Source of the DNA: Deltaproteobacteria bacterium
GTDB taxonomy: Bacteria; Myxococcota_A; Bradymonadia; REDH01
Direction of reading: 5' to 3'
Assembly (NCBI GenBank): GCA_013205435.1
Contig: JABMMX010000352.1
Coordinates: 1 to 39,068 of the forward strand
DNA: 39,068 nt
A model generated the notes under the pieces. It saw only the letters and a list, made by a program, of their open reading frames with translations, searched no databases and was not told the DNA's origin. This document shows positions 1-29,766 of the stretch, in pieces (position 1 is the first letter of the stretch; every line of letters begins with the position of its first letter). Made by a program: the position numbers and the translations under genes.

Positions 1-877
1 GATCACCGCCGCGCTGCACGACGCCGGCCTCCGATTCTTCGCCCTCAAAGGCTGCGACCTCCTCCTCACAACCTACGAGCAGATTGGCGCCCGCCACCTC
101 GACGACATTGACCTGCTCTTCCACCCCGACGACCTCGCTGCTGCCTCCGCCGCCCTCCTCGCCGCCGGCTATCCGCTCCAGACTGCCGGCACCGAGGTCC
201 CCTTCGTCGATGGCAACTCCTACGCCGACTATGTCGCCTCCCAGGCCGCCGATAAGATCCACCCAGCCGTCCACGAGAGCGCCGACGGCCTCTCCATCGA
301 ACTCCACCGCATGCTCCCGCAGTCCGAGGCCCCTGCCGCAGACTTCGACCGGCTCTGGGCCGCACGCACGACCCATGCCCGCGACGGCCTCCTCATCCCG
401 CTCCTGCCGCGTGAAGAGCTCACCCGACACCTCTGCATCCACGCCTTCGTGCAGCACTACGGCGACTGGCGCATCCTCGCCCGCCACCTCGCCGATGCGC
501 TCCGACTCCACCGCGCCGGCTGGCTCCTCAACACCGACGCTCCGGCGCAAACAGACCTCCCCCTCCGCCTCACCAAAGCACTCGTAGCCCTCCACGCAAG
601 CGCCTCGCCTCCGGCCGCTGCCACGCTCAGGCGACTCGTCTTCCCAGGGCCCCGCGCGCAGCGGCTCTGGGACCAGTCCATCTTCCAGCGGCTACTCCTG
701 CAGCGGGTCGCACACGACGCCCTGCACCAGCCCCAGATGCTCCTCCGCAAGCTGCTTCCGAGCGACGACTACCTCGCCTATCACTACGGCGACGAGGCCC
801 TCGCGGCAGGCCGCAAGCGGCTCCTCCTCAAGCGGCTCGCCATGCTCCCCTTTCGCCCCTTCACAGGCGCACGATGA
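1..877 (+). CDS. Nucleotidyltransferase-family protein (NTP_transf_5-like), 5' partial
   Basis: The reading frame is already open at the left edge (first full codon at base 2) and ends at a TGA at 875-877, leaving about 291 visible residues. The start of the visible part has the pattern LKGCDLL, then about twenty residues later RHLDDIDLLF. This is the LKG...R..DID signature of the uncharacterised nucleotidyltransferase family (PF14907), where the two aspartates resemble the metal-binding pair of the nucleotidyltransferase fold. The remainder is Arg/Leu-rich and helical in character. The stop overlaps the next gene's start as ATGA, so the two are probably translationally coupled. Members of this family occur beside HPr-kinase-like proteins in some lasso-peptide clusters, where they are thought to modify the peptide further. 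The substrate here is unknown. Family assignment is fairly secure; the RiPP role is inferred from neighbours. Confidence 0.8.
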   Translation, partial: ITAALHDAGLRFFALKGCDLLLTTYEQIGARHLDDIDLLFHPDDLAAASAALLAAGYPLQTAGTEVPFVDGNSYADYVASQAADKIHPAVHESADGLSIELHRMLPQSEAPAADFDRLWAARTTHARDGLLIPLLPREELTRHLCIHAFVQHYGDWRILARHLADALRLHRAGWLLNTDAPAQTDLPLRLTKALVALHASASPPAAATLRRLVFPGPRAQRLWDQSIFQRLLLQRVAHDALHQPQMLLRKLLPSDDYLAYHYGDEALAAGRKRLLLKRLAMLPFRPFTGAR

Positions 878-1857
878 GCGGCCTGCGTCGCGCACAGCTC
901 GCAGGTATCGACATCGTCTGGCTGCCCTGGGCCGCCTCCGACCCGCTCGCTGCCATCCTCGACTGCCTCGGCGAGCCAGAGGCCCCAGCAACCGCCACGC
1001 TAAGCGTGTCGCTTCGGCCTGCCGACGGGCCTCCTGCGCCGCTCCCCGATGCCAGCCATCGCCCCCTCTTCTTCCACGGTCGCACCCGCGTCTTTGCAGC
1101 CGATGACCGCATCCTGCTCTGGGACGGCGCCAGCCTGCTCTCCCTCGCGGACGACGGCAGCGAGCTGCACGGCGAGGTCCACCCCAACTCGCTCGACGAC
1201 GGCCACACCTTCAGCAGCGCCACCCTCCTCATCGCGCTCGCTGTCGCGCTCCGCCTCCGCCGCCGCTTCCACCTCCACGCCGGCCTCGTCTCGCTCGAGG
1301 GCCTCGGCACCCTCCTAGTCGCCGGCGATGCCGCCCACGGCAAGACCACAACCACCCTCTCGCTGCTGCGGCGCGGTGGCCTGCTGGCGGGCGACGACAC
1401 CCTCTACATCGACCCCGCCGCGCGCTGCATCTGGGGCCTCCCCAAGCCCCTCAACCTCTCGCCGCGAACTGCCCACACCTTCGCCGAACTCACCGCCCGC
1501 CACCCCAGCCCTGCGGCCGCCGAGAGCGGCAAGAGCAGCTACCCTGCGGCCCTGCTCTTCCCTGGCGCGCTCCGCCCCTCGCTCGGCTACCCAGACTGGC
1601 TCCTCTTCCCACGCATCACGGGCGAGCCCACAACACGCCTCGAGGCGCTCGCACCCACGGACGCGCTCGGCAACCTCATGACTGCCTCGGCGCTCGTCGC
1701 CGTCGACGAACTCGCAGGCGCCGAAGAACACCTCGCAGCCCTCCTCGCCCTTGTCTCACACGGCCGCTCCTACGAGCTCCTGCTGGGCCTCGACGCGCTC
1801 GAACGGCCGGAGGCGATCCTCGACCTGCTCACCGCCGAAGCGAACCGCCCGCGCTAG
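874..1857 (+). CDS. HPr-kinase-like ATP-binding protein, putative RiPP-tailoring kinase
   Basis: This is a 327-aa protein starting with the ATG of the ATGA overlap with the upstream gene. A P-loop GDAAHGKTT lies at residues 151-159, preceded by a hydrophobic strand, and is followed by the acidic segment LLAGDDTLYI. This layout is that of the HprK/P C-terminal kinase domain. The N-terminal half is not recognisable as the HPr kinase N-domain. Related kinases (PadeK, ThcoK) phosphorylate the C-terminal Ser of lasso precursors. The candidate precursor in this locus ends Leu-Thr-Ala-Ser-Gly, so a Ser/Thr there is a plausible target, by inference only. The gene converges on the PqqD-like gene and both stops lie in one shared CTAG at 1854-1857, leaving no room for a terminator between them. 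Confidence 0.78.
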   Translation: MSGLRRAQLAGIDIVWLPWAASDPLAAILDCLGEPEAPATATLSVSLRPADGPPAPLPDASHRPLFFHGRTRVFAADDRILLWDGASLLSLADDGSELHGEVHPNSLDDGHTFSSATLLIALAVALRLRRRFHLHAGLVSLEGLGTLLVAGDAAHGKTTTTLSLLRRGGLLAGDDTLYIDPAARCIWGLPKPLNLSPRTAHTFAELTARHPSPAAAESGKSSYPAALLFPGALRPSLGYPDWLLFPRITGEPTTRLEALAPTDALGNLMTASALVAVDELAGAEEHLAALLALVSHGRSYELLLGLDALERPEAILDLLTAEANRPR

Positions 1858-2174
1858 GCCAGCGCGACCACGACCAGCTTGTCGGCAGCCAGCGATGCAA
1901 CCATCTCCGCCAGGTCTGCGGCAGCAACTTCGCCCGTGACCTCGAACTCCTCGACCAACCCGGCGACGAGTTCTGACGCCAACTTCGAGCGGCCACCAAA
2001 GCGCTTCCAGAGGAAGACGCCCGTCACGTTCAGCTCGTAGTAAAACTTCGTGTCCATATCGAGCAGGACCCCCTTTCCGTCGGGCATCTCGGTGAGGATG
2101 ACGCGGGCGCTGGGGGTGATGCGGGTGGTTTCGAGGTCCAAGGCAGTCTCACGCGGCTGAGGGAGGATAGACAA
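1854..2174 (-). CDS. PqqD-like RiPP recognition element protein (lasso B1 type)
   Basis: This is a 106-aa protein matching PqqD-family length and pattern. An N-terminal strand region contains RITPSARVILTEMPDGKGVLLDMDT-type sequence, followed by YYELNVTGVFLWKRF, then a helical tail ending LAADKLVVVAL. PqqD-like proteins bind the leader of a RiPP precursor and present it to a protease or radical SAM enzyme; the discrete form in lasso systems is B1. The only suitable start is a TTG at 2174, preceded by AGGTGA. The first internal Met, in the EMPDGKG segment, would remove part of the fold. The gene overlaps the B2 protease gene by 26 bases, which is typical of a B1/B2 pair, here in the order B2 then B1. 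Its expected ligand is the YxxPxL motif in the 66-aa peptide encoded at 5609-5809. Confidence 0.85.
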   Translation of the reverse strand: MSILPQPRETALDLETTRITPSARVILTEMPDGKGVLLDMDTKFYYELNVTGVFLWKRFGGRSKLASELVAGLVEEFEVTGEVAAADLAEMVASLAADKLVVVALA

Positions 2175-2589
2175 AGGTCACCTGATAGTCGGTGGACTCC
2201 CTCTCAAGCACAGGTTGCCCCCGAAGTTCAATCCAAGCGTGGCCCTCCATCACACCTTCGCGCTCGCGGAGCCCCATTTTGAAGACCACCTCCACGCCCC
2301 GCTCCCGCAGGCAGCGGTAACGGATGAGACTCCGCAGCATGCAGGTTGTCCGCGTGAAGCGCACACGGCGCAACACCAGCTCGGTCGCCCGCTCAACCGC
2401 CTCCAGCGTCCCTGCCTCGCTGCGACCGCCAAACCGGACAGCGGCGGGCGTCAGGCCACGCAGCAGTCGGTCCATGGGCAGCCTCTCAAGGGCAACAGGC
2501 AGCAGGCCGCGTAGCAGCACAACCTCCGCCACCAGCCCAGGCGCTGCTGCCACCTCCTGAAGGAGGCTAGGCAATCTTCTTCGGGCCAC
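2149..2589 (-). CDS. Lasso-peptide biosynthesis B2-type transglutaminase-like cysteine protease
   Basis: This is a 146-aa protein of the usual length for the family (PF13471). The catalytic Cys is seen at about residue 83 in TTCMLRSLIRYRCLRERG and the His at about 117 in EGHAWIEL. Both sit in the spacing typical of lasso B2 leader peptidases, where a C-H-D/E triad cleaves the precursor after the residue following a conserved Thr. The protein probably works with the PqqD-like partner whose gene overlaps it. The GTG start at 2589 lies within the end of the radical SAM gene (23-base overlap) and has no clear ribosome binding site. A CCTCC-TGAA-GGAGG hairpin at 2553-2566, just inside the gene, could affect initiation, and a slightly later start cannot be excluded. 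No lasso cyclase accompanies it in the window. Confidence 0.85.
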   Translation of the reverse strand: MARRRLPSLLQEVAAAPGLVAEVVLLRGLLPVALERLPMDRLLRGLTPAAVRFGGRSEAGTLEAVERATELVLRRVRFTRTTCMLRSLIRYRCLRERGVEVVFKMGLREREGVMEGHAWIELRGQPVLERESTDYQVTFVYPPSAA

Positions 2590-3646
2590 CGCCGCAGCCG
2601 GTCACCTTCTCTGCGTCGACCGCCCACTTGCCGCGCCAGCGCTCCCGCTTGGCCTCCACGCCGCCGCGACCCTCGTCGGTCCAGTAGGGCTTCTTGAAGA
2701 GCTTCATGCAGAAGTTACAGGGGAAGAGGTCCCACTCCGAGAGCGTGCCCTCCTTGATGGCCTTGTTCTTCTCGGTCTGCGCGTAGTGGATGACATCGAG
2801 CATCTTCTGATGCGCGTCTGCGAGGCTCACCTCGTGCAGGTTTCCGAGCACGTCGGCGGGCGCCCCTTCCGTCGGCACGCCGGAGTGCTGGCAGCAGAGC
2901 GTCAGGTTGCCCTTCGGGTCCACATGGAGAATCTCCGAGCGGAAGGGCTGACAGACGAAGAAGGGCTCTTCGCGGTAGAAGCTGTCCGTGAAGGAGACCG
3001 GCATATGCAGGCTGCCCTGCAGGCGGGTGATGGTGTCGAGCACCGTCCGCCACTCCGCCGTCGAGAGGAACATCTCCTCGTCGAGGTAGGTGCCCGTAGG
3101 CTGCGTCATGCCGAACGACATGCGCCCCGAACCCAGGTGGCTCGCCATCATCGCCATCTGCTCAATCTGGTGAGCGTTGTAGGCGTTGACCGTCATCTGC
3201 ATGATGAAGGGAATCTTCCGCATGGTGCAGATGGCAACCGCCTGCATCACGTTGCGGAAGCTACCGGGGCCGCGCACCTTGTCGTGCACCTCTTCGGTCG
3301 CACCATCGATGGAGAAGTTCATCGCGGTGCAGGTCGAAAGCCGCTCGGGCTTCTCATCGAGTTTGGCCACCATCCTCGAAAACTTTTCGGAGTTGGTCAC
3401 CACGTGCCACGTGTAGCCGCGGGCCACGATGGCATCGATGATCTCGTAGAACTGAGGGTGGAGCGAGGGCTCGCCGCCCGTCAGGCCAACATGCTTGCAG
3501 CGGTAGAGCTGCCAGGCCTCGTCCAGCACATTGCAGATGAGGTCGAGCGAGAGGTCTTGCGACTTAATCTCGGGGTCCCGGAGGCAGTGCTTGCAGTTAA
3601 GCTGGCACCGGTCGGTGATGTGAAAGACAACCCAAGTTGGATTCAT
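2567..3646 (-). CDS. Radical SAM / SPASM-type peptide maturase
   Basis: This is a 359-aa protein. The N-terminal radical SAM cluster motif CxxxCxxC is at residues 14, 18 and 21 (TDRCQLNCKHC), followed by the SAM-binding GGEP motif (LTGGEPSLHP). Toward the C-terminus lie Cys232, Cys251-Cys252, Cys310, Cys313 and Cys352, consistent with a SPASM domain carrying auxiliary Fe-S clusters as in many RiPP maturases. The chemistry (epimerisation, C-C or ether crosslink, decarboxylation) cannot be read from sequence. Immediate neighbours are the B2 protease (overlapping) and a lipoprotein gene ending 18 bases upstream, so it is part of a minus-strand operon. A role in maturing the Gly-rich peptide at 5609-5809 is inference. 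The core has no Cys, so Cys-based sactionine chemistry on that peptide is unlikely. Confidence 0.88.
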   Translation of the reverse strand: MNPTWVVFHITDRCQLNCKHCLRDPEIKSQDLSLDLICNVLDEAWQLYRCKHVGLTGGEPSLHPQFYEIIDAIVARGYTWHVVTNSEKFSRMVAKLDEKPERLSTCTAMNFSIDGATEEVHDKVRGPGSFRNVMQAVAICTMRKIPFIMQMTVNAYNAHQIEQMAMMASHLGSGRMSFGMTQPTGTYLDEEMFLSTAEWRTVLDTITRLQGSLHMPVSFTDSFYREEPFFVCQPFRSEILHVDPKGNLTLCCQHSGVPTEGAPADVLGNLHEVSLADAHQKMLDVIHYAQTEKNKAIKEGTLSEWDLFPCNFCMKLFKKPYWTDEGRGGVEAKRERWRGKWAVDAEKVTGCGGGPKKIA

Positions 3647-3664
3647 AGGACCCCGTAGCGGACG

Positions 3665-5335
3665 CTAGCGCGCGATCGCCGGATTGAGAGTGGTGGCTTC
3701 GATGAGACCCGGGCGGGGACCACCATCGAGGACCTCGTTGGTGGTGATACGGGTGGTAAGGCCGGTCGTGATGTTGAGCACCATGATCTCGGTCTGGACG
3801 ACGCTGGCCGAGGCAAAGATGCGCTCGGAGGTGACCAGGTTCCCGTTGGGGAAGAAGGCGGGCGAGCTATCGTTGGTCGAGCCCGAGACGGGCGTCGGCG
3901 TACCGGAGGTGCGGTGCGTCGTGCAGTTGAACGCGTTGCTGTGGAACTGCGTTGCGCCGCCGCCGAGGTCCTTCGTCCAGAGTGCGGAGGTGCCGGCCGG
4001 GCTGATGGCGGGCGCGCCAAGGTAGCCTGTGAGGCTGGCAGTGCTGTTGCCGGCACCGTCAACACCTACCGAGAACAGGGTCACAGCGCCGCCAGCTGCC
4101 TGCTTGGTGTAGATGACCGTGGAGGGGTCGCACTCGGCGATGGCCGGGTCGGCCTCGCCGTTGCCGCCGTTGTCGACAAGTACGGTGCAGGCAGCGCCGC
4201 TCGCGTCGAGGGGCTGCGTGAAGAGGCCGAAGTCGCCGCTGTAGAAGTTGGTGAAGACCAGCGCCGACTCATCGGGCAGCACGGTGAAGCCACCGCTCAG
4301 GAGACCGGTCGGGTCGGGGTTGCCCTGGTAGGCGAGTTCGGGGCAGACCGGCGTGAGCTGGTCGATAGCGCCCGTCTCGATGGCCAACTTGTAGATGCCA
4401 ACGTTGGTGTTGGCAGGCGCCGAGCAGTCGGTAACCTTCATGGAGAAGTAGACGGAGCGACCGTCGGGCGACCAGCGGGCCGCCAGCTTCTGACCGGGGA
4501 GGTTCGTGACGCGACGCTCATCGGTGCCGTCCGCGCGGACGACGTAGAGCTGCGATGCCTGCTGCTCAGCGCAAGCCGAACCGGGCGTGCGAACGAAGAG
4601 GATCCAGGGGTCCTCGGTGACGGGAACGGCAACGCACTCGCCGGCGTCGCAGTTCGTGCCTGTGGGGCAGGCGGTCTCGCTCTCGGCGTCGCGGCACTCG
4701 CAGCTCGTCCCGATATCGTAGGCCGTGCGGGCCGTCTCAACACGGTTGTTGCCGCGGCAGAAAGGCGCAGGCGCCGCATCGCAGATGGTCGCGTCGCAGA
4801 CGCAGGTGCCGGCTTGGTCAACGAAAGTGTCGAGGCAGTCGCCACAGGAATCGGGGCCGTCCGCAACGTCGCAGGCGCGGTTGTCGGGCTCGCAATCACG
4901 GGGGTTGAGGGTGTCGCACTCCAAGCAGGCAATGTTGTTCGCACAGTCAGAGTCGGCGCAGTCGGCGTTGCCGTCGCCATCATCATCCGTGCCGTTGCCG
5001 CAGCTCTCTTGGATGCCGCCGGTGTCGGTACCCGCGTCGACCGTCGTGTCCTCGACCGCGGTGTCGACCTCGGTGTCCTCCACGTTGGTGTCCTCCTCGG
5101 TCGTATCGGCCGTGCCGGTATCCGTGGAGGTGTCCGCGGTGGTGTCGGGCGCGGTGTCCTCGCAGCCCTCACCGGTGAAGAGGTTGCACGAGGCGCCCGT
5201 GTCCTCGGTCTTTTCCGTGGTCTCATCGCCGCAAGCCACGAGGGCCAGCGAGGCGACAAAGGTCGCGGCGGTGAGCGTGGAGGGCCCGCGGAGCAGCGCG
5301 AGCAGAGAGGTCGAATTCAGCGTCGTGCGAGCCAT
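3665..5335 (-). CDS. Lipoprotein with Asp/Thr-rich linker, MopE-like Cys repeats and TolB-like propeller
   Basis: I place the start at the ATG at 5335, with GGAG upstream, giving 556 aa. It begins with a signal peptide and a lipobox (SLALVAC, Cys35) followed by Gly-Asp, which predicts a lipid-anchored exported protein. Next is a low-complexity stretch of Asp-Thr repeats (roughly residues 45-100), then a calcium/metal-binding-like segment CGNGTDDDGDGNADC and further CxxC-rich sequence like the MopE-type repeats of Myxococcota. The C-terminal two thirds contains repeats such as WSPDGRSVYFS and LYVVRADGTDERRVT, typical of PD40/TolB beta-propeller blades. The gene lies between the candidate precursor and the radical SAM gene, 18 bases from the latter. 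It could be an exported receptor or binding partner for the product, or an unrelated passenger. The sequence does not decide. Confidence 0.8.
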   Translation of the reverse strand: MARTTLNSTSLLALLRGPSTLTAATFVASLALVACGDETTEKTEDTGASCNLFTGEGCEDTAPDTTADTSTDTGTADTTEEDTNVEDTEVDTAVEDTTVDAGTDTGGIQESCGNGTDDDGDGNADCADSDCANNIACLECDTLNPRDCEPDNRACDVADGPDSCGDCLDTFVDQAGTCVCDATICDAAPAPFCRGNNRVETARTAYDIGTSCECRDAESETACPTGTNCDAGECVAVPVTEDPWILFVRTPGSACAEQQASQLYVVRADGTDERRVTNLPGQKLAARWSPDGRSVYFSMKVTDCSAPANTNVGIYKLAIETGAIDQLTPVCPELAYQGNPDPTGLLSGGFTVLPDESALVFTNFYSGDFGLFTQPLDASGAACTVLVDNGGNGEADPAIAECDPSTVIYTKQAAGGAVTLFSVGVDGAGNSTASLTGYLGAPAISPAGTSALWTKDLGGGATQFHSNAFNCTTHRTSGTPTPVSGSTNDSSPAFFPNGNLVTSERIFASASVVQTEIMVLNITTGLTTRITTNEVLDGGPRPGLIEATTLNPAIAR

Positions 5336-5464
5336 AACAATCTCCGAGGTCGAATAGAGGGCAAACGGTGGGGTGCGTTGAGCGCAAGGTTTACGGTCGA
5401 ATCCCACGTAGCACAGCCACAGAGATGAGATCAAAAGAAGATCTTATGCAACAGCCCGCTACAT

Positions 5465-5481
5465 GTGACAGAATTTGTCAC
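5465..5481. promoter_or_regulatory. Perfect dyad GTGACA-N5-TGTCAC upstream of the lipoprotein gene
   Basis: A 6-bp inverted repeat with a 5-bp AT-rich spacer (GAATT) lies about 130 bases upstream of the lipoprotein start and beyond the terminator that follows the peptide gene. The symmetry and spacing are those of a homodimeric regulator site. No regulator can be named and no convincing -35/-10 pair was found next to it. Confidence 0.4.
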
Positions 5482-5539
5482 CCCGACCCGCCCAGACTGT
5501 CTCTTTCCGTCACCGAAGCGACCGGCGAAGGCAGACACG

Positions 5540-5580
5540 AAAAAGGGCCGACAGGTCTTTTTCGAGACTTGTTCGGCCCT
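5540..5580 (-). terminator. Strong rho-independent terminator after the precursor peptide gene
   Basis: Outer arms AGGGCCGA (5544-5551) and TCGGCCCT (5573-5580) pair perfectly. The stem continues inward through CAGGTCT / AGACTTG with one bulge and one G-U pair to a six-base loop. On the minus strand the hairpin is followed at once by five T (complement of 5540-5544). It starts 28 bases after the stop of the 66-aa peptide gene and so separates that gene from the downstream lipoprotein and maturation genes. Confidence 0.88.
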
Positions 5581-5608
5581 GTCAGGCGAACCGAGATACG
5601 AGGTTTGA

Positions 5609-5809
5609 CTAGCCGGAAGCCGTGAGGCCGCCAGCCGAAACGCCGCCGCCCGAGAAGAGCGTAACGCGCGCCACAGAGCGCTTCTTGGCGAGGCTGGGAG
5701 CCTCGTAAGAGCGACGACCCGTCAATACAGCCTCCTCGAGGCCGACCGACTCAGCGACCACATCCGTGGTCGAATCCTGTTGCTTTGGCATTGGCCGTTG
5801 CTTGCTCAT
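5609..5809 (-). CDS. Candidate RiPP precursor peptide with lasso-type leader (66 aa)
   Basis: The ATG at 5809 has an excellent AAGGAG site 7 bases upstream. The open frame extends further upstream, but the longer form has no such site. The N-terminal half is hydrophilic (KQQDSTTDVVAE). The C-terminal half has Tyr34-x-x-Pro37-x-Leu39 and then Thr49, ten residues after the Leu. This is the exact register of lasso leaders (YxxPxL...T, cleavage after the residue following Thr). If cleaved after Leu50, the core would be FSGGGVSAGGLTASG. That core has no Asp or Glu for a lasso ring and no Cys. The Gly usually found in the leader at position 10 counting from the Tyr is Arg. Neighbouring B1/B2-like, radical SAM and ABC genes support the reading. 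Alternatively it is a stand-alone leader-like peptide. Confidence 0.68.
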   Translation of the reverse strand: MSKQRPMPKQQDSTTDVVAESVGLEEAVLTGRRSYEAPSLAKKRSVARVTLFSGGGVSAGGLTASG

Positions 5810-5826
5810 GTCTCGGCTCCTTCGAA

Positions 5827-5840
5827 GGGGCGGTAGCCCC
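5827..5840 (-). promoter_or_regulatory. Small 5'-leader hairpin before the precursor gene
   Basis: GGGGC-GGTA-GCCCC is a perfect 5-bp GC stem with a four-base loop. In the minus-strand transcript it ends about 5 bases before the AAGGAG ribosome binding site of the peptide gene. It could protect the messenger or tune initiation; function is not shown by the sequence. Confidence 0.4.
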
Positions 5841-5861
5841 GATGGGTGTCTGCGAATCGTC

Positions 5862-5876
5862 ACGTCAATCCGACGT
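5862..5876. promoter_or_regulatory. Dyad ACGTC-N5-GACGT in the precursor upstream region
   Basis: A perfect 5-bp inverted repeat with spacer AATCC lies 53-67 bases upstream of the peptide start codon. It is near the direct repeats at 5882-5910, which suggests a compact regulatory region in the 117-base gap between permease and peptide genes. Confidence 0.35.
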
Positions 5877-5881
5877 AAGGG

Positions 5882-5910
5882 AACAATGCATGAATCAAGC
5901 CAACAATGCA
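5882..5910. promoter_or_regulatory. Direct repeats AACAATGCA spaced by 20 bp (two helical turns)
   Basis: The nonamer AACAATGCA occurs at 5882-5890 and again at 5902-5910. The 20-bp period places both copies on the same DNA face, as for tandem response-regulator or activator half-sites. They lie 73-101 bases upstream of the peptide gene start. The repeats are seen directly; the regulatory role is inference. Confidence 0.4.
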
Positions 5911-5926
5911 ACATCTTCGATCGCAC

Positions 5927-6727
5927 TTAGTAGTGCGCCAGCGATCCTTCCTTGAGAACCGTCCGGACTGCCGCTCGAACCGTGAACAGTGCAACCGTCG
6001 ATGCAATCGCGAAGAGGATTACCAGCCGAAGCGCCACCGGCGCCAACTCCGCCCAACCGCCACCGGCCAGCGCCAAGCGAACCCCGTCCACCACGGGAGC
6101 AATCGGAACCCAAGCTCCGATCGCGCCCACCTCGGCCGGAAGTTGCGCCCGAGGCACAAATACGCCGCCAGTCACCACCGCCGACAGGTGCACGGCCCGG
6201 TTCAAAGGATCTCCCGCCTTGTAGCGGAGCAACAACGAGGCCGAGATCAGACCGACCGCCAGGAAGAGGAGCATTCCGCCTGCACCGAACAGCGCCGCGT
6301 AGAACCAGGCAACCGGATTCGGCGCAGGCGTCATGAAGAGGCTCGCCAGCACGACGATCCCGGTCGAGCGCATGACGCTCACCGAGAGATCAAAGCTCGG
6401 CATCGCAGTCATCAACGCGGGCAAAGAGTGGCCGGTCATCAGGCAGGCCTCGAGCATGCCCGTTGTCTGGTGGCGACGCAGCTTGCTCGTGAAGGCGCCA
6501 AGCGAGGTCCACATGAGGTCCATCACCGCGAAACCGCAGGCAAGAAAGGGGAGGACACCCAGGCCGCCCGCTCCCATCCCGTCGCCCACCAGCTTGGAGA
6601 GCCCGTGCAGCAGAAAGAAGAGCATCGCCAGCCCCGCCAGCCGGTTGAAGTGAACCAGAGGATAGCTCTGGGCTTCGCGGAAATCATGGAGCCAGAAGGC
6701 GCGGAGAAGCTTTGCTTGCCTCATCAT
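5927..6727 (-). CDS. ABC-2 type transporter permease
   Basis: This is a 266-aa protein with about six hydrophobic segments, starting around LAGLAMLFFLLHGL and ending with LVILFAIASTVALFTV. The C-terminal half has the ABC-2 arrangement: a segment such as GGVFVPRAQLPAEVGAIGAWVPIAPVVDG ahead of the last helix. Its ATG overlaps the ATPase stop as ATGATGA-type coupling (starts at 6727 or 6724 are both possible; the longer is given). With the ATPase it forms an inner-membrane exporter lacking any peptidase domain, so leader removal must come from the separate B2 protease. Export of the mature peptide is a reasonable inference because the next gene downstream is the candidate precursor. Confidence 0.85.
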   Translation of the reverse strand: MMRQAKLLRAFWLHDFREAQSYPLVHFNRLAGLAMLFFLLHGLSKLVGDGMGAGGLGVLPFLACGFAVMDLMWTSLGAFTSKLRRHQTTGMLEACLMTGHSLPALMTAMPSFDLSVSVMRSTGIVVLASLFMTPAPNPVAWFYAALFGAGGMLLFLAVGLISASLLLRYKAGDPLNRAVHLSAVVTGGVFVPRAQLPAEVGAIGAWVPIAPVVDGVRLALAGGGWAELAPVALRLVILFAIASTVALFTVRAAVRTVLKEGSLAHY

Positions 6728-7539
6728 GCCTCCTCCTCGTCCTGCTCCCGGGCGAAGACGGCATCGGCCGCGGCCGACACTTCCGCAAAGCCCCCCGACG
6801 CAACGATACGACCGCCATCGAGGAGATGGAGCACGTCGCAGAGGGCCTCCAACTCTGCCATGTCGTGAGAGGCGATCAGAATGGCCTTTCCCTGCTCCTT
6901 GGCGAGCTGCAGACAGAGCCGCTTGAACGATTCACGACGGCCTGGATCGAGGCCGGTGCTGGCCTCGTCAAGCAACAGCAGCGCCGGGTCGGCAATGAGC
7001 GCGCGACCCATCGACAGCCGCTGCCGCATGCCCGACGAGTAGGTCCGAAAGGGGCGATCGGCCTGCTTCGTGAGACCCACACGGGCCAACGCTTCCGCCA
7101 CCGCTTCGGCCCGTGACCCGCCATCCATCTGCGCTAGTTCGGCGAAGAAGGAGAGGTTCTCACGGCCTGTCAGCCGGAGGTTAAAGGAGCGGTCCTCGCG
7201 TGAGACCCAGCCGATACGCCGGCGCTGTCTACCACCCCCCGTGGTAGGCGCCGAACCATCCACCAGGAGTTCGCCCGAGGTCGGCACCACCAGCCCCGCA
7301 ACGCACCTCATCAGCGTACTCTTGCCGGCCCCGTTGGGCCCGATGAGCCCTACAATCTGACCCGCATTGATCTCGAACGAGATGTCGCGAAGCACCTCGA
7401 CCGGCGGCGGTCGGCGAAAGCGTAGAAGCTCTCTGATACGAGGCGTGACCGTGAAGGTCTTGCAGACCTCATGCAGCCGCAGCACGGGCCTAGATGCCAA
7501 AGAGGGCGCCTCTTGGTGCAGGGCCCCTGGCTGATCCAC
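6724..7539 (-). CDS. ABC transporter ATP-binding protein
   Basis: This is a 271-aa protein. Walker A GPNGAGKST is at residues 67-75, the signature YSSGMRQRLSMG and Walker B LLLLDEAST follow in normal order, and the H-loop is in IASHDMAELEAL. An N-terminal extension of about 20 residues precedes the usual beta-strand (VLRLHEVCKTF). The GTG start at 7539 shares its first G with the TAG stop of the Mrp-like gene (TAGTG), so translation is probably coupled to it. It pairs with the downstream permease, whose start overlaps its stop. The subfamily resembles ABC-2 exporters for polysaccharide, drug or peptide; substrate assignment rests on the RiPP context. Confidence 0.88.
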   Translation of the reverse strand: MDQPGALHQEAPSLASRPVLRLHEVCKTFTVTPRIRELLRFRRPPPVEVLRDISFEINAGQIVGLIGPNGAGKSTLMRCVAGLVVPTSGELLVDGSAPTTGGGRQRRRIGWVSREDRSFNLRLTGRENLSFFAELAQMDGGSRAEAVAEALARVGLTKQADRPFRTYSSGMRQRLSMGRALIADPALLLLDEASTGLDPGRRESFKRLCLQLAKEQGKAILIASHDMAELEALCDVLHLLDGGRIVASGGFAEVSAAADAVFAREQDEEEA

Positions 7540-8837: not shown

Positions 8838-10106
8838 TTAGACGGCTGCGTTGTTGCGCAGAATGGTGACGACGGCGGTGCGGTCGTCGCCGCCCATGTT
8901 CGCCGCGATGCCATGCTTGATGTCGTGGCCGACCTGGTAGTCTCCGCAGCGCTTCTGCATCTGGCGAGCCACCTCGAGCACCTGCTTGATGCCGGTCGCG
9001 CCGACGGGGTGACCGAAGGCGAGAAGGCCGCCGCCCGTGTTCACCGGGATGTCGCCGCCAATCGCCGTCCGACCCTCGCGGGCGAGCGCGCCGCCCTGCC
9101 CGTGCGCCGCAAAGCCGAGCGCCTCGGTCATGAGCAGCTCCGTGATGGCAAAGCAGTCGTGAACCTCGGCAACTTTCATGTCGCCGGCCGTCAGACCGGT
9201 GTCTGCGTAGGCCTCCTTGGCCGCACGCTCGGTGATGCCCATGCGGGTGAAGTCGGAGACCTGCCCGAGCGCGCCGTTCGACTGCGCGTAGGAGAGCACC
9301 TCAACGGCATCGTCAGGCGAGAGTCCGAGCGCGCGCAGCCCCTCTTCGGAGGCCAGGACCATGGCGGCTGCGCCGTCAGAGACCTGCGAGCAGTCGCTGA
9401 TCTTGAGGAAGGGCGACAGGTCGGGGTTCTTGAGGAAGGTGGGGTTGCGATCGCTGGCGGTCGCTGCCTGCTCGAAGGTCATCGGAACGGCCTTCATGTG
9501 GGCGTTCGGGTTCTTCGCCGCGTTGGCGTAGGCCTTCACAACCACATGGGCGACATCCTCCTCGGTCACGCCGGTCTCTGCACGGCAATGCATCGTGCGA
9601 CGGGCGAACATAGCGGGGAAGGTGAAGTCGTCGAGGCCGCGCTCGGTCTCGTAGTGAGAGGCGCGGGCGAGGAAGTCTGCACCCTCGCGTGCCGACACGG
9701 TGGTCTGGGCCTCGGCGCCGATGGCGAGCGTGATGTTGCGGCCGGCCTGGATGGCCTCAATGGCGCCAATCATCGCGAGTGCGCCGGAGGCGCAGGCGCC
9801 CTCCACACGGGTGAAGGGGACGCCCTCAAGACGGCTCTCCACGCGGGCGAGCATCGAGCCGAGGTGGCCCTGCTTGCTGAAGAGTTCGCCAGCGAAGTTG
9901 CCGACGTAGCCCTTCTCGATGCGGGCGGGCTCCAGCCCAGTCTCTGCAAAGAGCTTGGCAAGCACCTGCGCGAAGTACTCCTCAAGCGTCGGGTTCTCGC
10001 GCTTGCCGAAGTCGGAATGCCCCTTCCAGATGAAGTCGGGATGCGACTTGCCGATGAAGGGAGTGAGCGCACCGCCCACAAGGAAGACGCGACGAAGAGG
10101 CTTCAT
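8838..10106 (-). CDS. Thiolase-family protein (SCP2/SCP-x type acetyl-CoA acetyltransferase)
   Basis: I chose the ATG at 10106, with GGAG upstream, over an upstream in-frame start; the protein then begins MKPLRRVFLVGG and has 422 aa. The nucleophilic Cys105 lies in GACASG, a HDCF motif at about residue 316 (AEVHDCFAITE) and the catalytic His at about 366 in FGHPVGATG. The C-terminal Cys-Gly loop of classical thiolases is replaced by ANMGGDDR. This combination is that of SCP2-type thiolases, in which the HDCF Cys takes over. It would catalyse thiolytic cleavage or condensation of acyl-CoA in lipid metabolism. It stands apart from the RiPP genes, about 70 bases from the Mrp-like gene. Confidence 0.88.
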   Translation of the reverse strand: MKPLRRVFLVGGALTPFIGKSHPDFIWKGHSDFGKRENPTLEEYFAQVLAKLFAETGLEPARIEKGYVGNFAGELFSKQGHLGSMLARVESRLEGVPFTRVEGACASGALAMIGAIEAIQAGRNITLAIGAEAQTTVSAREGADFLARASHYETERGLDDFTFPAMFARRTMHCRAETGVTEEDVAHVVVKAYANAAKNPNAHMKAVPMTFEQAATASDRNPTFLKNPDLSPFLKISDCSQVSDGAAAMVLASEEGLRALGLSPDDAVEVLSYAQSNGALGQVSDFTRMGITERAAKEAYADTGLTAGDMKVAEVHDCFAITELLMTEALGFAAHGQGGALAREGRTAIGGDIPVNTGGGLLAFGHPVGATGIKQVLEVARQMQKRCGDYQVGHDIKHGIAANMGGDDRTAVVTILRNNAAV

Positions 10107-10215
10107 GAAGATGCTCCAGCAGAGTGAATGTAGGCCGAGCGGCGTGGGCCTGCCGGCGCGGCGCAACTAGTCAGGTTTGGGCTGTTTGGCCACACCCCGC
10201 GCGAAACGCGGCGCG

Positions 10216-11454
10216 TTACTCGGGCAGCGTCTCGAGCGTCCCTGCGGTGCCGGTTTCGTCCAGCAGCACGAGGTCGTCGCGATGGATGACCGCATCGCCA
10301 TTGGAGTATCCGAGCGTCTCGGCGATCTGCTCGCTGCGGAGGCCCCGAAGGCGCCGAATCTCCGAAGCCGAGTAGGCCACCAACCCGCGCGCAAAGGTGT
10401 TGCCAGCCTCGTTCTGGAGGTCGACGGCAGCGCCTGGGCCGAAGTCTCCGCTCACGCCGAGCAGACCGCTTGGGAGCAAGGACTTTCCAAGCTCCCGAAG
10501 CGCGCGCGAAGCGCCGGCATCGACCGAGATAACGCCGCTCGGACGGGCTCCGAACTTGATCCAGCTCTTGCGGGCACCGAGCTGCTGATCGCGGGGCACA
10601 AGCAGGGTGCCGAAGCCGGGGCCGCCGCTCAGTGCCGCACCCAGGCCGCTCAGTTCGCGGCCGGGGCCGATGATGGTTGGCACGCCGTAACCTGCAGCGA
10701 TGCGTGCAGCCCTGATCTTGGAGGCCATGCCGCCTGTGCCCGGACCATCTTGACTGGCGGGACCGGCGATGGCGAGCAGCCCCGGGTCGTCGGCAAAGGC
10801 CACCGCGATGGGGTTGGCGCTGTTGTCGCGGGTCGGGTCGGCATCGAAAACGGCGCTGACATCAGAAAGGATGATGAGCAGGTCGGCGCCGACGACGCTC
10901 GTGAGCAGTCCGGCCAGCTGATCGTTGTCGCCGAAGCGGAGCTCCTCGGTCGCCACGGTATCGTTCTCGTTCACGATGGGGATGATGGAGGGCACAAGCT
11001 CCATCTCGCGGAAGGTGATGCGGGCGTTGAGGAACCGCTCCCGGTTGGCGATGTCGTCGCGTGTGAGCAGCACCTGGGCGACCTGCTTGCCGTAGAAGGC
11101 GAACTCCTCGCCGTAGAGGTGCATCAGGCGGGGCTGACCGATGGCTGCGAGCGCCTGCTTGGCCGACAGCGTATCGGGGCGCGCCTCATCCGCACGGCGC
11201 AGCGAAGCGATGGTGCGACGGCCCACCGCCACCGCTCCCGAGGTCACCAGCACGATGTGGCGACCCGGCACATCGGCGAGACGAGCGATGGTCTCGACGA
11301 TCGCGCAGAAGTTGTGGCGGTCGATCAGGTTGGCTGACCCGCCGACCAGGACATTCGAGCCAACCTTGATGACAATCCGCTTGGCCCGCGCAAGACGAGC
11401 ACGGGTCTCTGCTTCGGTCGCTGGGGCGACCCGCTCAACTTGAATTCTCGACAC
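10216..11454 (-). CDS. proB: Glutamate 5-kinase
   Basis: This is a 412-aa protein catalysing ATP-dependent phosphorylation of glutamate, the first step of proline synthesis. The amino-acid kinase domain starts with IVIKVGSNVL, followed by VTSGAVAVGRR, the substrate loop IPIVNENDTVATEELRFGDND and GTGGMASKIRAA. The C-terminal part (SWIKFGARPSGVISVDAGASRAL onward) is a PUA domain, as in Escherichia coli ProB. It is longer than the typical 367 residues, mostly through an N-terminal extension of about 25 residues. No proA or obg lies next to it; the neighbouring thiolase is about 110 bases downstream. The gene is divergent from the DUF2723 gene. Confidence 0.93.
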   Translation of the reverse strand: MSRIQVERVAPATEAETRARLARAKRIVIKVGSNVLVGGSANLIDRHNFCAIVETIARLADVPGRHIVLVTSGAVAVGRRTIASLRRADEARPDTLSAKQALAAIGQPRLMHLYGEEFAFYGKQVAQVLLTRDDIANRERFLNARITFREMELVPSIIPIVNENDTVATEELRFGDNDQLAGLLTSVVGADLLIILSDVSAVFDADPTRDNSANPIAVAFADDPGLLAIAGPASQDGPGTGGMASKIRAARIAAGYGVPTIIGPGRELSGLGAALSGGPGFGTLLVPRDQQLGARKSWIKFGARPSGVISVDAGASRALRELGKSLLPSGLLGVSGDFGPGAAVDLQNEAGNTFARGLVAYSASEIRRLRGLRSEQIAETLGYSNGDAVIHRDDLVLLDETGTAGTLETLPE

Positions 11455-21975: not shown

Positions 21976-22506
21976 TTACTCGATTTCCTTGTCGATGTAG
22001 AGGCCAGCGCCGCCCTTGATCTCCATCGCGGTGACGGAGGCAACGCGGGTGAAGGTGGCGAATTCGGCATCACCGTCAAGGTTACCGAAGGCCGTTGCAG
22101 TGAACTTGGCCTGGTTGGTGGTCGAGCCATTCGAGTTGTACTGGTAGGCGTAGTAGCTCGGGTCGGAGACGGCGAACTGCAGTGCGTTCCAGGTGGGAAC
22201 TCCGTCCCACGAGGAGGGCGCCGTGGTGACCTTCACATCGCCGATGGTGGCGAGCGCCGGGAGGGGACCGGCGGTGTCGGGGAAGCTGGCGGCAAGGATG
22301 CCACCGCCCGTACCGGCGTGCTCGGAGGCGAAGTAGGTGACGGAGGCATCGAAGAGCTTCCGGACGTTCATCGTGGCTTCGGCCGTCTTGGCGCGCTTGA
22401 TGTACTTGAGGAAGGCCGGAATCGCGACCGCGGCAAGGATGCCGAGGATGGCGACGACGATCATGAGCTCAATGAGGGTGTATCCCTTGCGGTTACGGAC
22501 GGACAT
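21976..22506 (-). CDS. pilA: Type IV major pilin paralogue 2 (Tyr at mature position 1)
   Basis: This is a 176-aa prepilin. The short basic leader MSVRNRKG is cleaved by the prepilin peptidase before YTLIELMIVVAILGILA. The mature protein starts with Tyr instead of the usual Phe and keeps Glu5. A hydrophobic N-terminal helix and the pattern YIKRAKTAEATMNVRKL follow, then a variable globular part and the end GGAGLYIDKEIE. There is no C-terminal disulfide pair. It is the same length as the pilin encoded at 22810-23340 and nearly identical in the first 60 and last 15 residues, so the two are tandem duplicates. It has its own candidate sigma-54 promoter and its own terminator. Confidence 0.92.
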   Translation of the reverse strand: MSVRNRKGYTLIELMIVVAILGILAAVAIPAFLKYIKRAKTAEATMNVRKLFDASVTYFASEHAGTGGGILAASFPDTAGPLPALATIGDVKVTTAPSSWDGVPTWNALQFAVSDPSYYAYQYNSNGSTTNQAKFTATAFGNLDGDAEFATFTRVASVTAMEIKGGAGLYIDKEIE

Positions 22507-22550
22507 AGTGCCTCGATGTCTTTTGAGAGGGGAGAGTCAGGAGGAGATAC

Positions 22551-22566
22551 TGCACAAGTCAGGCCA
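22551..22566 (-). promoter_or_regulatory. Candidate sigma-54 promoter for pilin 2
   Basis: On the minus strand TGGCCTGACTTGTGCA has GG and GC elements exactly ten bases apart. It matches the TGGCAC-N5-TTGC consensus with three mismatches outside the invariant positions. Transcription would begin near 22539, about 33 bases before the pilin start. It is weaker than the match in front of pilin 1. Confidence 0.45.
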
Positions 22567-22722
22567 TTGTGACGATCTTCACGCGCTCAGGCAAACAAAT
22601 TGTGCAGCGCAAGGAAAGACGGGGGCTCGCGAGATCCGAGCGGCCCGGAGAGCTGCCCTGCAGGGCGCATCGTCGTCCGGCCAAAGGCGACAAAAGTTGT
22701 CAGACGGCCTGGGTGGCGGACG

Positions 22723-22780
22723 AAAAACGCCGAACGGCTAGCCAAAAACGCCGAACGGCCGGCGATGAATTCGCCGACCG
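22723..22780 (-). terminator. Terminator with two tandem T-tract repeats after pilin 1
   Basis: In the minus strand, about 30 bases after the pilin stop, CGGTCGGCGA (22780-22771) pairs with TCGCCGGCCG (22765-22756), ten pairs including one G-T, around a five-base loop. Two identical 16-base copies of GCCGTTCGGCGTTTTT follow (22744-22759 and 22723-22738), each ending in five T. Each copy can itself form a small GCC/GGC hairpin, so this may act as a repeated terminator. Confidence 0.65.
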
Positions 22781-22809
22781 CCCGGGGTGACCGAATGGGT
22801 CGGGATCGA

Positions 22810-23340
22810 TTACTCGATCTCCTTGTCGATGTAGAGACCAGCGCCGCCCTTGACTTCCATGTCAACGACTGCGCCGACGCGGGTGAAGGTCGAGTAGATG
22901 GCGTCGCCATCAAGGTTGCCGAAGGCGGTGGCGGTGAACTTCGAGTCGTTGGTCACGCCAGTTGAGTCGTACTGGTAGGCGAAGTAGGACGGGTCAGAGA
23001 CCGAGAACTGGAGGGAGTTCCAGGTGGAGTCCGCGTCCCACGAGGAGGGCGCCGTGGTGATCTTGACGTCGCCGATGGCGGCGAGCGTGGGAAGGGTCGC
23101 CGTGGTGGCCGAGAACTGAGCCTGGATGATGGCGCCAGCGGGCGAGGTGTGCTCACCAGCGAAGTAGGTGACCGACGAGTCGTACAGCTTGCGGACGTTC
23201 ATCGTCGCCTCGGTCGTCTTCGAGCGCTTGATGTACTTGAGGAAGGCCGGGATGGCGACCGCGGCAAGGATGCCGAGGATCGCGACGACGATCATGAGCT
23301 CAATGAGCGTGATACCCTTGCGATTGTTGATGCTGTTCAT
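22810..23340 (-). CDS. pilA: Type IV major pilin (Ile at mature position 1)
   Basis: The ATG at 23340 has a very good GAGGAG site, so the open frame's upstream extension is discarded; this gives 176 aa. The leader MNSINNRKG is followed by ITLIELMIVVAILGILA. Prepilin peptidase would leave Ile at position 1, unlike the usual Phe, and Glu5 is kept. No cysteines are present. The globular part is moderately conserved with the second pilin (for example TTAPSSWD and DPSYFAYQYD), and both end GGAGLYIDKEIE. A near-consensus sigma-54 promoter with an upstream dyad precedes it, so it is the best candidate for the main PilS/PilR-regulated pilin. Confidence 0.93.
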   Translation of the reverse strand: MNSINNRKGITLIELMIVVAILGILAAVAIPAFLKYIKRSKTTEATMNVRKLYDSSVTYFAGEHTSPAGAIIQAQFSATTATLPTLAAIGDVKITTAPSSWDADSTWNSLQFSVSDPSYFAYQYDSTGVTNDSKFTATAFGNLDGDAIYSTFTRVGAVVDMEVKGGAGLYIDKEIE

Positions 23341-23398
23341 TGCTTCTCTCCTCAAATGTGGTGGCGAGATTGCCACCGGGGTTGGATGTCAGATTAGA

Positions 23399-23415
23399 TG
23401 CGACCTTCGTGCCAA
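23399..23415 (-). promoter_or_regulatory. Sigma-54 promoter of the first major pilin
   Basis: The minus-strand sequence TTGGCACGAAGGTCGCA matches the YTGGCACG-N4-TTGCW consensus with a single mismatch (TCGC for TTGC). The invariant GG (-24) and GC (-12) are kept at the right distance. The start of transcription would be near 23388, giving a leader of about 48 bases to the pilin ATG. PilR-type activators with sigma-54 drive pilA in Pseudomonas and Myxococcus, and a PilR gene lies less than 1 kb upstream. Confidence 0.8.
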
Positions 23416-23486
23416 CTCTGAAGACCGGAAAGATCAGGTGGCCAAGTGTTTCGATATCTTCATGAATTCAAACGAAAAATATGGAA

Positions 23487-23505
23487 AACTGTTTTTGCTA
23501 CAGTT
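23487..23505. promoter_or_regulatory. Dyad AACTGT-N7-ACAGTT, possible PilR enhancer site
   Basis: A perfect 6-bp inverted repeat with a seven-base spacer (TTTTGCT) lies in an AT-rich patch, about 108 bases upstream of the predicted sigma-54 start site. This is the usual distance for an enhancer-binding activator. Binding by PilR is inference. Confidence 0.5.
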
Positions 23506-23632
23506 GTTGGAAGTGACCGCTCGCGACAACTCTCTTTCCGTTTACCCGCGCATACCTGAAGGGCTGTCCGACACCTGCGCCCAATTTTGTCAGCGGCGCG
23601 CGCTCGCCCGTCTGTTTTTGGGCAGATCCGGC

Positions 23633-24178
23633 TCACTCCGCCGAATTCACAACCAATGGCACGCCCTCTGTCATGCCACTGGTCAGCACAAACCTCGCTG
23701 GGGTGCCGTCGCCGTCCTGGTCGCTCACCGCAAAAAGCTGCCAGTAGAAGGAGCCCGCAGCCACAGAATCACAGGCCTCCGAAGAGCTGAAGCTCGCGCC
23801 GCTGATCGCAGGGGGCGTGCCACAGGTGTCTGCAGGTGTTCCCGACTGAACATAGAAGGCAAACCTGCTCTGGGACGGCACATTGATGCCGAGTGCCGAG
23901 AAAACGCCATCGACGGGCGTGAAGGGGGCGTCGACACTCTGCGGCACCGCCGTGGGCGACCAGGCTGATGCTCCCGCATACTGGCCCCGTGAGCTGCGAT
24001 AGGTCTCCTGCGCCGTTGCAAGGGAGGCGAAGAGCTGGTTGACCTTCACCTCGCGGCCCTTGCGGACCTGCTTGCCCCAGGCGACGGCAGCGAGGGAGGC
24101 GAGGACGCCGATGATCGAGACAACGATCATCAGCTCGACGAGAGAGAAGCCGCGGCGAGAAGAGGCGTGGTTTGGCAT
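23633..24178 (-). CDS. Type IV pilin-like protein (minor pilin/pseudopilin)
   Basis: This is a 181-aa protein. The leader MPNHASSRRG is followed by FSLVELMIVVSIIGVLASLA, a standard prepilin peptidase site with Phe1 and Glu5. The globular part differs from the two major pilins and has two cysteines (in DTCGTPPAI and SEACDSV) that could form a disulfide. The C-terminus contains SDQDGDGTPARF, a possible calcium-binding loop. The ATG at 24178 has a GGAG site. The gene begins 21 bases after pilR, so it is probably cotranscribed with pilS-pilR rather than driven by the sigma-54 promoter of the major pilins. Confidence 0.87.
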   Translation of the reverse strand: MPNHASSRRGFSLVELMIVVSIIGVLASLAAVAWGKQVRKGREVKVNQLFASLATAQETYRSSRGQYAGASAWSPTAVPQSVDAPFTPVDGVFSALGINVPSQSRFAFYVQSGTPADTCGTPPAISGASFSSSEACDSVAAGSFYWQLFAVSDQDGDGTPARFVLTSGMTEGVPLVVNSAE

Positions 24179-24199
24179 GAGCGTGTTCTCCTTGGAGGG

Positions 24200-25594: not shown

Positions 25595-25595
25595 G

Positions 25596-27404: not shown

Positions 27405-27428
27405 GGAGGCCCCCCGGCAGGTCGACTG

Positions 27429-28634
27429 CTAGCCAACATTGTCGGCCATGGTGAAGATGGGGAGATACATGGCGATGAGCATTCCACCGACGACCCCGCC
27501 GATGAAGATCATCATGACCGGCTCGAGGAGTGCGGTGAGGGCGTCGACGGCGACGTCGACCTCGTCTTCGTAGAAGTCAGCGATTTTGTTAAGCATGGTA
27601 TCCATGGCGCCGGTGGCCTCACCAACGCCGATCATCTGAACGACCATCTTGGGGAAGATGCCGGTCTCGGCGAGGGGCTCAGCCATGGTGCGGCCTTCGG
27701 AGATCTTCTCGCGAACGCGCATGATGGCCCGCTCGATCACCTTGTTTCCAGCCGTACGGGAGACGATCTCAAGTCCATCGAGGATTGGGACACCGGCAGA
27801 GACGAGGGTACCGAGCGTTCGGGTGAACTTTGCGACGGCCGACTTTCGGATGAGGGTACCGAAGATGGGCGTCCGGAGCATGAAGGAGTCGAAGAGGTAT
27901 CGGCCTTTCGGATTGGCGACCAGGGTGCGGAAGCCGGTAATGGCTCCGAAGATACCGCCAATGTAGATATACCAGTTGCTGGCGAAGTTGTCGGAGAGGT
28001 CGATAACGAACTGGGTGGGGGCGGGGAGCGCCTTCTTTCCCATCGATTGGAACATGCCCTGGAATGTGGGGATGACCTTCCAGAGGAGGACGATGACGAC
28101 GACGAGAGCGATGGCCGCGATCGAAAGCGGGTAGGTGAAGGCACCCGCGACCTTTCGGTTCAGCTTCACCGACTTTTCGATGTAGATGGCGAGACGGTTG
28201 AGGATGGTGTCGAGAATACCGCCGACCTCGCCGGCGGCGACGAGATTGACGTAGAGTTCGTCGAAGACTTTGGGGTGCTTGTTGAGCGCAGTGGCGAAGG
28301 TGGATCCGGTCTCGACGTCGTTTTTGACCGAGAGGATGATCTTGGCGAAGTTCTTGTTGGGTTCGCCGTTGCCGAGGATTTCGAGGCACTGCACGAGGGG
28401 CAGACCTGCATCAATCATGGTGGCGAACTGGCGGGTGAAAATAACCAACTCTTTGTTGGTGACGCCGCCACCCAAGGAGGGAAGCGCGATGCCGGCAGAC
28501 TTCTTCTTGATCTTTCCGGGCTGGATGTTCTGGGCCCGGAGCCGGTTGATGACGTCGGCCTCGTTGTCGGCCTGCATCTCGCCCGAGCTCTCTTCGCCGG
28601 TGCGTGTTCTTCCTTCCCAGAGATAGGTAGCCAT
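27429..28634 (-). CDS. pilC: Type IV pilus inner-membrane platform protein PilC
   Basis: This is a 401-aa protein of normal length for PilC/GspF. It has two tandem T2SSF domains, each with a conserved stretch near its start (ELVIFTRQFATMIDAGLPL and VAKFTRTLGTLVSAGVPIL). The hydrophobic segments include LSIAAIALVVVIVLLWKVI and the C-terminal VMMIFIGGVVGGMLIAMYLP. It forms the platform that connects the PilB and PilT motors to the growing pilus. The gene lies between pilT and pilS in the usual order. Confidence 0.96.
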   Translation of the reverse strand: MATYLWEGRTRTGEESSGEMQADNEADVINRLRAQNIQPGKIKKKSAGIALPSLGGGVTNKELVIFTRQFATMIDAGLPLVQCLEILGNGEPNKNFAKIILSVKNDVETGSTFATALNKHPKVFDELYVNLVAAGEVGGILDTILNRLAIYIEKSVKLNRKVAGAFTYPLSIAAIALVVVIVLLWKVIPTFQGMFQSMGKKALPAPTQFVIDLSDNFASNWYIYIGGIFGAITGFRTLVANPKGRYLFDSFMLRTPIFGTLIRKSAVAKFTRTLGTLVSAGVPILDGLEIVSRTAGNKVIERAIMRVREKISEGRTMAEPLAETGIFPKMVVQMIGVGEATGAMDTMLNKIADFYEDEVDVAVDALTALLEPVMMIFIGGVVGGMLIAMYLPIFTMADNVG

Positions 28635-28652
28635 GGTGGTTGCTCGGGTCAG

Positions 28653-29741: not shown

Positions 29742-29766
29742 AACAGAGCCTTGCGCCGGAGTTCGA

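Follow-up and report, generated by a model that had tools for sequence, protein, structure and literature searches.

Among the ribosomally synthesized and post-translationally modified peptides (RiPPs), the closest described counterparts of the locus reported here are the lasso clusters of paeninodin and pseudomycoidin. In lasso systems the B1 protein promotes some tailoring enzymes, the kinase PadeK phosphorylates the precursor and PsmN acts thereafter (PMC9266682), and cleavage by the B2 protease is dependent on the RiPP recognition element (RRE), with Thr at position -2 (PMC10885120). In a 2023 review, lasso peptides are the only products for which the C96 (B2) protease is described. The RRE-Finder survey counted about 300 lasso-type RREs adjoining radical S-adenosylmethionine (SAM) enzymes and classed them as false-positive matches to the lasso model (PMC7470986). 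We analysed contig JABMMX010000352.1, 39,068 nucleotides long and hereafter called the window, from a fragmented Myxococcota genome (GCA_013205435.1; 3.67 Mb in 404 contigs). The cluster under study lies at positions 1-7539 and shares with the paeninodin and pseudomycoidin clusters a discrete PqqD/B1 protein, a B2 (C96) protease, an HprK-like kinase, a nucleotidyltransferase, an ATP-binding cassette (ABC) exporter and the leader pattern Y-x2-P-x-L-x9-T. Unlike them, it displays no asparagine-synthetase-like cyclase and no Asp/Glu acceptor and encodes a radical SAM enzyme; the core starts with Phe, Leu or Val and has no C-terminal Ser, and a basic KKR replaces the leader Gly in most members of the family. 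This cluster and its relatives represent a new RiPP variant and not a lasso cluster. The window cluster is composed as follows:

2-877, plus strand: nucleotidyltransferase-family gene (PF14907, 80.5 bits), 5' end missing at the contig end
874-1857, plus strand: HprK/PEPCK-fold kinase in a PadeK-like cluster position, P-loop GDAAHGKT
1854-2174, minus strand: discrete RRE, PqqD or lasso B1-like (PqqD, 52.9 bits)
2149-2589, minus strand: B2-type leader protease of the transglutaminase fold, C96 (NF033537, 51.6 bits)
2567-3646, minus strand: radical SAM enzyme, twitch-like (Pfam Radical_SAM, 78.4 bits)
3665-5335, minus strand: beta-propeller (PD40/TolB-like) lipoprotein, lipobox LVAC (Pfam PD40, NCBIfam TolB propeller)
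5540-5582, minus strand: intrinsic-terminator-like hairpin and U run directly 3' of the precursor gene (folding)
5609-5809, minus strand: precursor peptide of 66 residues, with homologues in the genus and in related loci
5612-5656, minus strand: predicted core FSGGGVSAGGLTASG, the cut after T-L being placed by the lasso rule
5657-5707, minus strand: lasso-type leader motif YEAPSLAKKRSVARVTL (Y-x2-P-x-L-x9-T-L), in the register of 14 lasso precursors of the phylum
5927-6727, minus strand: ABC-2 type permease (PF01061, 29.8 bits)
6724-7539, minus strand: ABC transporter ATPase (PF00005, 112.8 bits)

Family searches recovered in place all the genes named by the original prediction, an earlier reading of the sequence alone. 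The lipoprotein gene sits between the precursor and radical SAM genes, and head-to-tail overlaps of 22-26 nt between the radical SAM, B2 and PqqD genes fit a single operon. The B2 protein matches Transglut_core3 (55 bits), passes the curated lasso B2 model NF033537 (cut-off 33) and has a conserved Cys and His with an acid at His+12. The PqqD protein reaches 38.2 bits with the lasso_PqqD_Strm model, under its cut-off of 70. The kinase has HPr kinase matches (E 1.9e-6) and scores 25.7 bits for the HPr kinase C-terminal domain, under the Pfam cut-off of 33.3; its predicted structure (AlphaFold2, AF2; predicted local distance difference test, pLDDT, 90.5) gave Foldseek matches to PEPCK and HprK/P, and the residues H135, A136, G151, G156, K157, T158 and D174 are invariant among 14 homologues.

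The distribution of the cluster was assessed by a B2-domain scan of 379 Myxococcota genomes with PqqD and cyclase searches in the B2 carriers, which split into ordinary lasso loci with a cyclase nearby and loci where a radical SAM homologue is present but a cyclase is not. A single-protein search with the radical SAM enzyme returned only its own genus and generic radical SAM proteins of archaea and Clostridia, and a profile search was hence used. It retrieved the gene in 18 of the 379 genomes of this phylum draw, four of them belonging to the window's genus, and in 25 of 318 genomes, from 13 genera, of one other class; in the window's own class the gene was seen in the window's genus only. Outside the genus, 26 Myxococcota genomes hold 27 loci with the radical SAM gene (34-52% identity where aligned), one of which (G591) ends at a contig end and was left out. 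Beside the radical SAM gene, the 26 remaining loci encode a B2 protein (24/26), a PqqD protein (25/26) and a kinase (25/26), with a precursor upstream in all of them (26/26), and many also possess ABC-transporter genes. Carriers of the cluster include the near-complete genomes G200, G340 and G356. The original prediction would have been undermined by a radical SAM gene mostly occurring without B1/B2 genes in relatives; the reverse was observed. Chance juxtaposition of unrelated genes, in favour of which nothing was found, is refuted by this recurrence in 13 genera of one class and the window's genus, and its probability is practically nil. The B2 proteins of the radical SAM loci form one clade (support 99/97) apart from lasso B2s, in a tree of which many deeper nodes are unresolved; the B2 of L092, a short contig without radical SAM gene, also falls inside this clade. 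Such a single, separate clade suggests that lasso-type recognition and cleavage were joined to this radical SAM enzyme probably once or a few times and then maintained, and this union is older than the window's genome. Co-occurrence and the B2 clade thereby support the central idea of the original prediction, that lasso leader recognition and cleavage have been joined to radical SAM chemistry, the chemistry itself and the product being inferred.

Some loci present particular features. G540 has two radical SAM paralogues (L148 and L149) and its precursors retain the lasso-like leader Gly (LERLGSVAKVAL). In L151 (G554, 9495-10558) the radical SAM frame is split into overlapping frames of 82 and 273 aa, by a sequencing-error frameshift or by decay. 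L087 (4489-8976 in G005, of the window's family) gathers B2, PqqD, an HprK-like kinase, the peptide YAAPTVSLAVPVGKVTMGLSLGVSPP and a propeller open reading frame (ORF), with neither radical SAM gene nor cyclase seen, and is possibly a further variant. Plasmid records gave, among the matches listed, only PqqE-like and generic proteins of 21-28% identity, and viral contigs two weak matches only.

A lasso cyclase and an acidic-core precursor just outside the window had been suggested as a refutation of the original prediction, and neither is found to the left. The same cluster, with a 100% identical radical SAM protein, is present in a lake genome of the same genus (G001, L010/L021), where the nucleotidyltransferase gene is complete (92% identity). 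Beyond it come MoxR ATPase, DUF58 and transglutaminase-type genes of housekeeping type, named by resemblance. An asparagine-synthetase-like gene was found neither in the window cluster by family search nor in the 14 kb further left in G001, and a PF00733 search retrieved none on the whole G001 cluster contig. The left end of the cluster is thus the nucleotidyltransferase gene, without cyclase. Lasso-type cyclases are also missing beside the related radical SAM loci (0/26). A radical SAM enzyme thus stands where a lasso cluster has its knot-tying enzyme, and a product other than a lasso is most likely.

The precursor of the window, MSKQRPMPKQQDSTTDVVAESVGLEEAVLTGRRSYEAPSLAKKRSVARVTLFSGGGVSAGGLTASG, is preceded by a Shine-Dalgarno-like GGAG and followed by the hairpin mentioned above (-24.4 kcal/mol, z -2.9), which a stricter terminator consensus scan does not list. 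It occurs in 4/4 genomes of the genus at 95% identity, and at the nucleotide level its gene is the best-conserved part of the region within the genus (96-97% identity). Precursors of the family share the register Y/F-x2-P-x-L/I/V-x9-T-L, which is the lasso-leader register with T at -2. This is illustrated by L070 (leader YEPPRLTKKRSVARATL, core FTPMGPAMTGTTFMG), L080 (leader YVAPRVEKRRSLARVTL, core LSGMGATGVGVISTMN), L144 (leader YSRPKVQKRRSVNYATL, core VSGGGTSGALTTG) and the divergent member L109 from G062 (leader FVRPKLIKRGDARQVTA, eight-residue core GFFGTFYP), to be compared with a lasso precursor of the same phylum (leader YEAPRLVELGSLRDLTH, core GGGGESDLAGGGPDS). Leader position 9 is usually Arg where lasso precursors have Gly, and position 16 is Leu in 25/26. 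The leader pattern was fixed after the first loci had been seen: a precursor in lasso register lies upstream in 15/15 discovery loci, for 2.2 such peptides expected over all 305 kb of random sequence of the same composition. Among 12 later loci not used in setting the pattern, the precursor profile recognized 12 and the fixed pattern 10, the two missed precursors having Ala where Thr is expected and a Gly at position 9, which makes them intermediate towards the lasso type.

The 15-residue core of the window contains no Asp/Glu, Cys, Lys, Trp or Tyr. Across the family, in which core sequence and length vary strongly, the first residue is hydrophobic in 22 of 26 cores and the second is Ser or Thr in 24; Cys is missing from 24 cores and Lys, Trp, Tyr and His from 25. 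The lasso acceptor, Asp/Glu at core position 7-9, is missing in 24/26 family cores and present in 14/14 lasso controls, the latter count being partly built in because the pattern by which the controls were chosen demands an acid 7-10 residues past the cut; its absence from the radical SAM set is not built in. Several known classes were considered and rejected on these grounds. An ordinary lasso cluster would agree with the register, the RRE and the B2 protein, but the cyclase and the acceptor at core 7-9 are lacking; sactipeptides and ranthipeptides require a Cys thioether donor, absent in 24/26 cores; and the residues required for a cyclophane (triceptide) or a streptide-type Lys-Trp crosslink are absent.

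The radical SAM enzyme carries the CxxxCxxC motif at positions 14/18/21, and an alignment of 15 sequences revealed invariant cysteines past the core, C232-x13-G-x4-C251-C252 ... C310xxC313. The original prediction had described a radical SAM enzyme with SPASM-like cysteines: the first part holds and the second calls for correction, as the SPASM domain match is of 16.6 bits, under the cut-off, and the seven-cysteine SPASM arrangement with two auxiliary clusters is not found. Twitch domains have the spacing C-x9-15-G-x4-C. Judging from its sequence, the auxiliary domain is twitch-like and single-cluster; four of its invariant cysteines suffice as cluster ligands, which leaves one (251 or 252) to spare. 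The AF2 model (pLDDT 83.5; predicted template modelling score, pTM, 0.83) has Foldseek matches to DesII, SuiB, SkfB, BlsE and PqqE, the best peptide-modifying one being SuiB, with an identity to such enzymes of only 12-21% in structure alignments. The nearest named sequence models, including the mycofactocin and PqqE maturases, all score under cut-off. Within the genus the protein has hardly changed, with non-synonymous divergence (dN) of 0-0.011 at a synonymous divergence (dS) of about 0.30.

It is highly probable that the locus produces a ribosomal, modified, non-lasso peptide by the pathway proposed here, a judgement which bears on the pathway and not on a specific reaction. By analogy with lasso biochemistry, the discrete PqqD-like RRE would bind the lasso-type leader (YEAPSL...T-L) and offer the core FSGGGVSAGGLTASG to the radical SAM enzyme, and this twitch-type enzyme would take hydrogen from core residues. 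The HprK-like kinase would phosphorylate a core Ser or Thr, the best candidate being the near-invariant one at core position 2, and the nucleotidyltransferase-family protein would possibly elaborate the phosphate. The B2 protease, activated by the leader-bound RRE, would cleave after T-L, again as in lasso biochemistry, and the ABC-2 exporter would secrete the product. For the radical SAM reaction we tentatively favour a C-alpha epimerization, at somewhat under even chances, because Cys, Lys and aromatic residues, on which known crosslinkers act, are missing from most cores and because the enzyme has one spare invariant Cys; EpeE, too, is a two-cluster enzyme in which a Cys must donate hydrogen (PMC8326336). 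With Cys, Lys, Trp, Tyr and His nearly absent from the cores, most members offer no residues for thioether, cyclophane or Lys-Trp chemistry. The other reactions conceivable on Val, Met, Thr or Leu, namely crosslinking, desaturation or cyclopropane formation, would be, summed, about as likely as epimerization. In its general outline, the family is likely to be a distinct RiPP class spread over Myxococcota. A dedicated single-cluster radical SAM enzyme and an HprK-like kinase would here draw on the lasso leader, RRE and C96 protease, and the secreted products would be peptides rich in Gly, Ser, Thr and Met that bear phosphate-based modifications and others made by radical chemistry, probably D-amino acids.

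Within the same pathway, the radical SAM enzyme could instead form a C-C or C-heteroatom bond or a cyclopropane on aliphatic residues, which we regard as a substantial minority possibility. The Gly/Thr/Val/Ser-rich cores recall the TVGG repeats of TvgA, in which TvgB makes cyclopropylglycine from Val (PMC9062424); the twitch/SPASM domain is common among crosslinking enzymes and SuiB, the top peptide-modifying match, makes a Lys-Trp bond. Yet no Val keeps its position from core to core, neither Lys nor Trp is present, and the identity to these enzymes is low. The proximity of the mycofactocin and PqqE maturases rather evokes a redox cofactor, or a peptide that tags the propeller lipoprotein encoded next to it, in place of a secreted antibiotic or signal. 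Propeller lipoproteins, of two sequence types, are indeed recurrent, with 9/25 radical SAM loci against 0/19 lasso loci (Fisher p 0.006, the loci not being independent); their genes lie at 3665-5335 in the window, 2380-3831 in L053, 5295-7442 and 11032-13134 in L111, 7875-9956 in L114, 9026-9868 in L144, 3146-5299 in L145, 11376-12485 in L148 and 4388-6490 in L152, as well as in L116. Against such a product stand the ABC-transporter genes of many loci, cores too variable in sequence and length for a cofactor precursor, and the lack of a Tyr/Glu pair of the PqqA kind, so that it appears unlikely; the lipoprotein is probably accessory, possibly as a receptor, immunity or target protein.

A lasso with its cyclase gene at a distant site of the genome, and only tailored by the radical SAM enzyme, would share the leader register, PqqD, B2, kinase and nucleotidyltransferase, and the window's own genome has two asparagine-synthetase matches, both on other contigs. 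Such homologues occur elsewhere in myxobacterial genomes, and gene content alone therefore leaves room for a distant cyclase. The nearest candidates to the related loci are nonetheless AsnB-like proteins (250-366 bits) in two families only, 9-11 kb off in family f28 (G186, G483) and about 33 kb off in G200 and G356, while in G246, another f28 genome, the contig encodes no such protein; in addition the core has no acidic acceptor, its first residue is not Gly, Ala, Ser or Cys, and the B2 proteins form their own clade. We consider this scenario very improbable. Several observations nevertheless weigh against the pathway of a radical-modified, non-lasso peptide. The divergent loci L110, L111 and L116 carry Asp/Glu near core 7-9, without a cyclase nearby. 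L109 has the radical SAM, PqqD, kinase and precursor genes, with no B2 domain found anywhere in its genome by Pfam search, and L148 possesses the radical SAM and precursor genes only, without B2 or PqqD. A C-terminal Ser is found in 0 of 26 cores, and PadeK-style C-terminal phosphorylation is therefore not directly transferable, and no member of the family has a known product or enzyme activity.

To the right of position 7539, the window encodes Mrp, a thiolase and further housekeeping-type genes, named by resemblance. Type IV pilus-like genes at 21976-31488, identified by the same means, comprise three pilin-like ORFs, a response regulator, a sensor and PilB/T/C-like ORFs. An Rfam scan gave no match.

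A stable lineage in which the lasso leader, RRE and protease persist while a radical SAM enzyme occupies the position of the ring closer suggests a portable module in the lasso 'front end'. The lineage also provides an aliphatic core, devoid of the usual reactive residues, as the substrate of a radical SAM reaction, and a search signature made of B2, PqqD, this radical SAM enzyme and the Y-P-L-T-L leader, with no cyclase. No description of a class combining B2 and such a precursor was found in the openly available literature; subscription papers lay outside the search and an earlier description is possible. The SynChlorMet (Scm) cassette similarly associates a PqqD-like protein, ScmD, with radical SAM proteins, but the window proteins score under the cut-offs of the ScmD/E/F models and this assignment was rejected. 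That cassette has two radical SAM/SPASM proteins and is not known to include B2. Epipeptides (EpeE/YydG) are comparable in having a radical SAM enzyme with one auxiliary cluster and aliphatic targets, EpeE requiring a catalytic Cys; they differ in that no lasso-type leader, PqqD or B2 is described in the paper on them (PMC8326336), and the present analysis relates the two enzymes at superfamily level. In the TvgB system a radical SAM enzyme also acts on a Gly/Thr/Val-rich core, there with a repeated TVGG motif and with no B2 or kinase reported in the part of the paper drawn on (PMC9062424). The RRE-Finder survey, in its part considered here, gives counts without precursor, B2 linkage or class definition, and its cases resemble the present loci in combining a lasso-like RRE with an adjacent radical SAM enzyme and no cyclase (PMC7470986), an arrangement which genome mining based on B1/B2 could misfile as broken lasso clusters.

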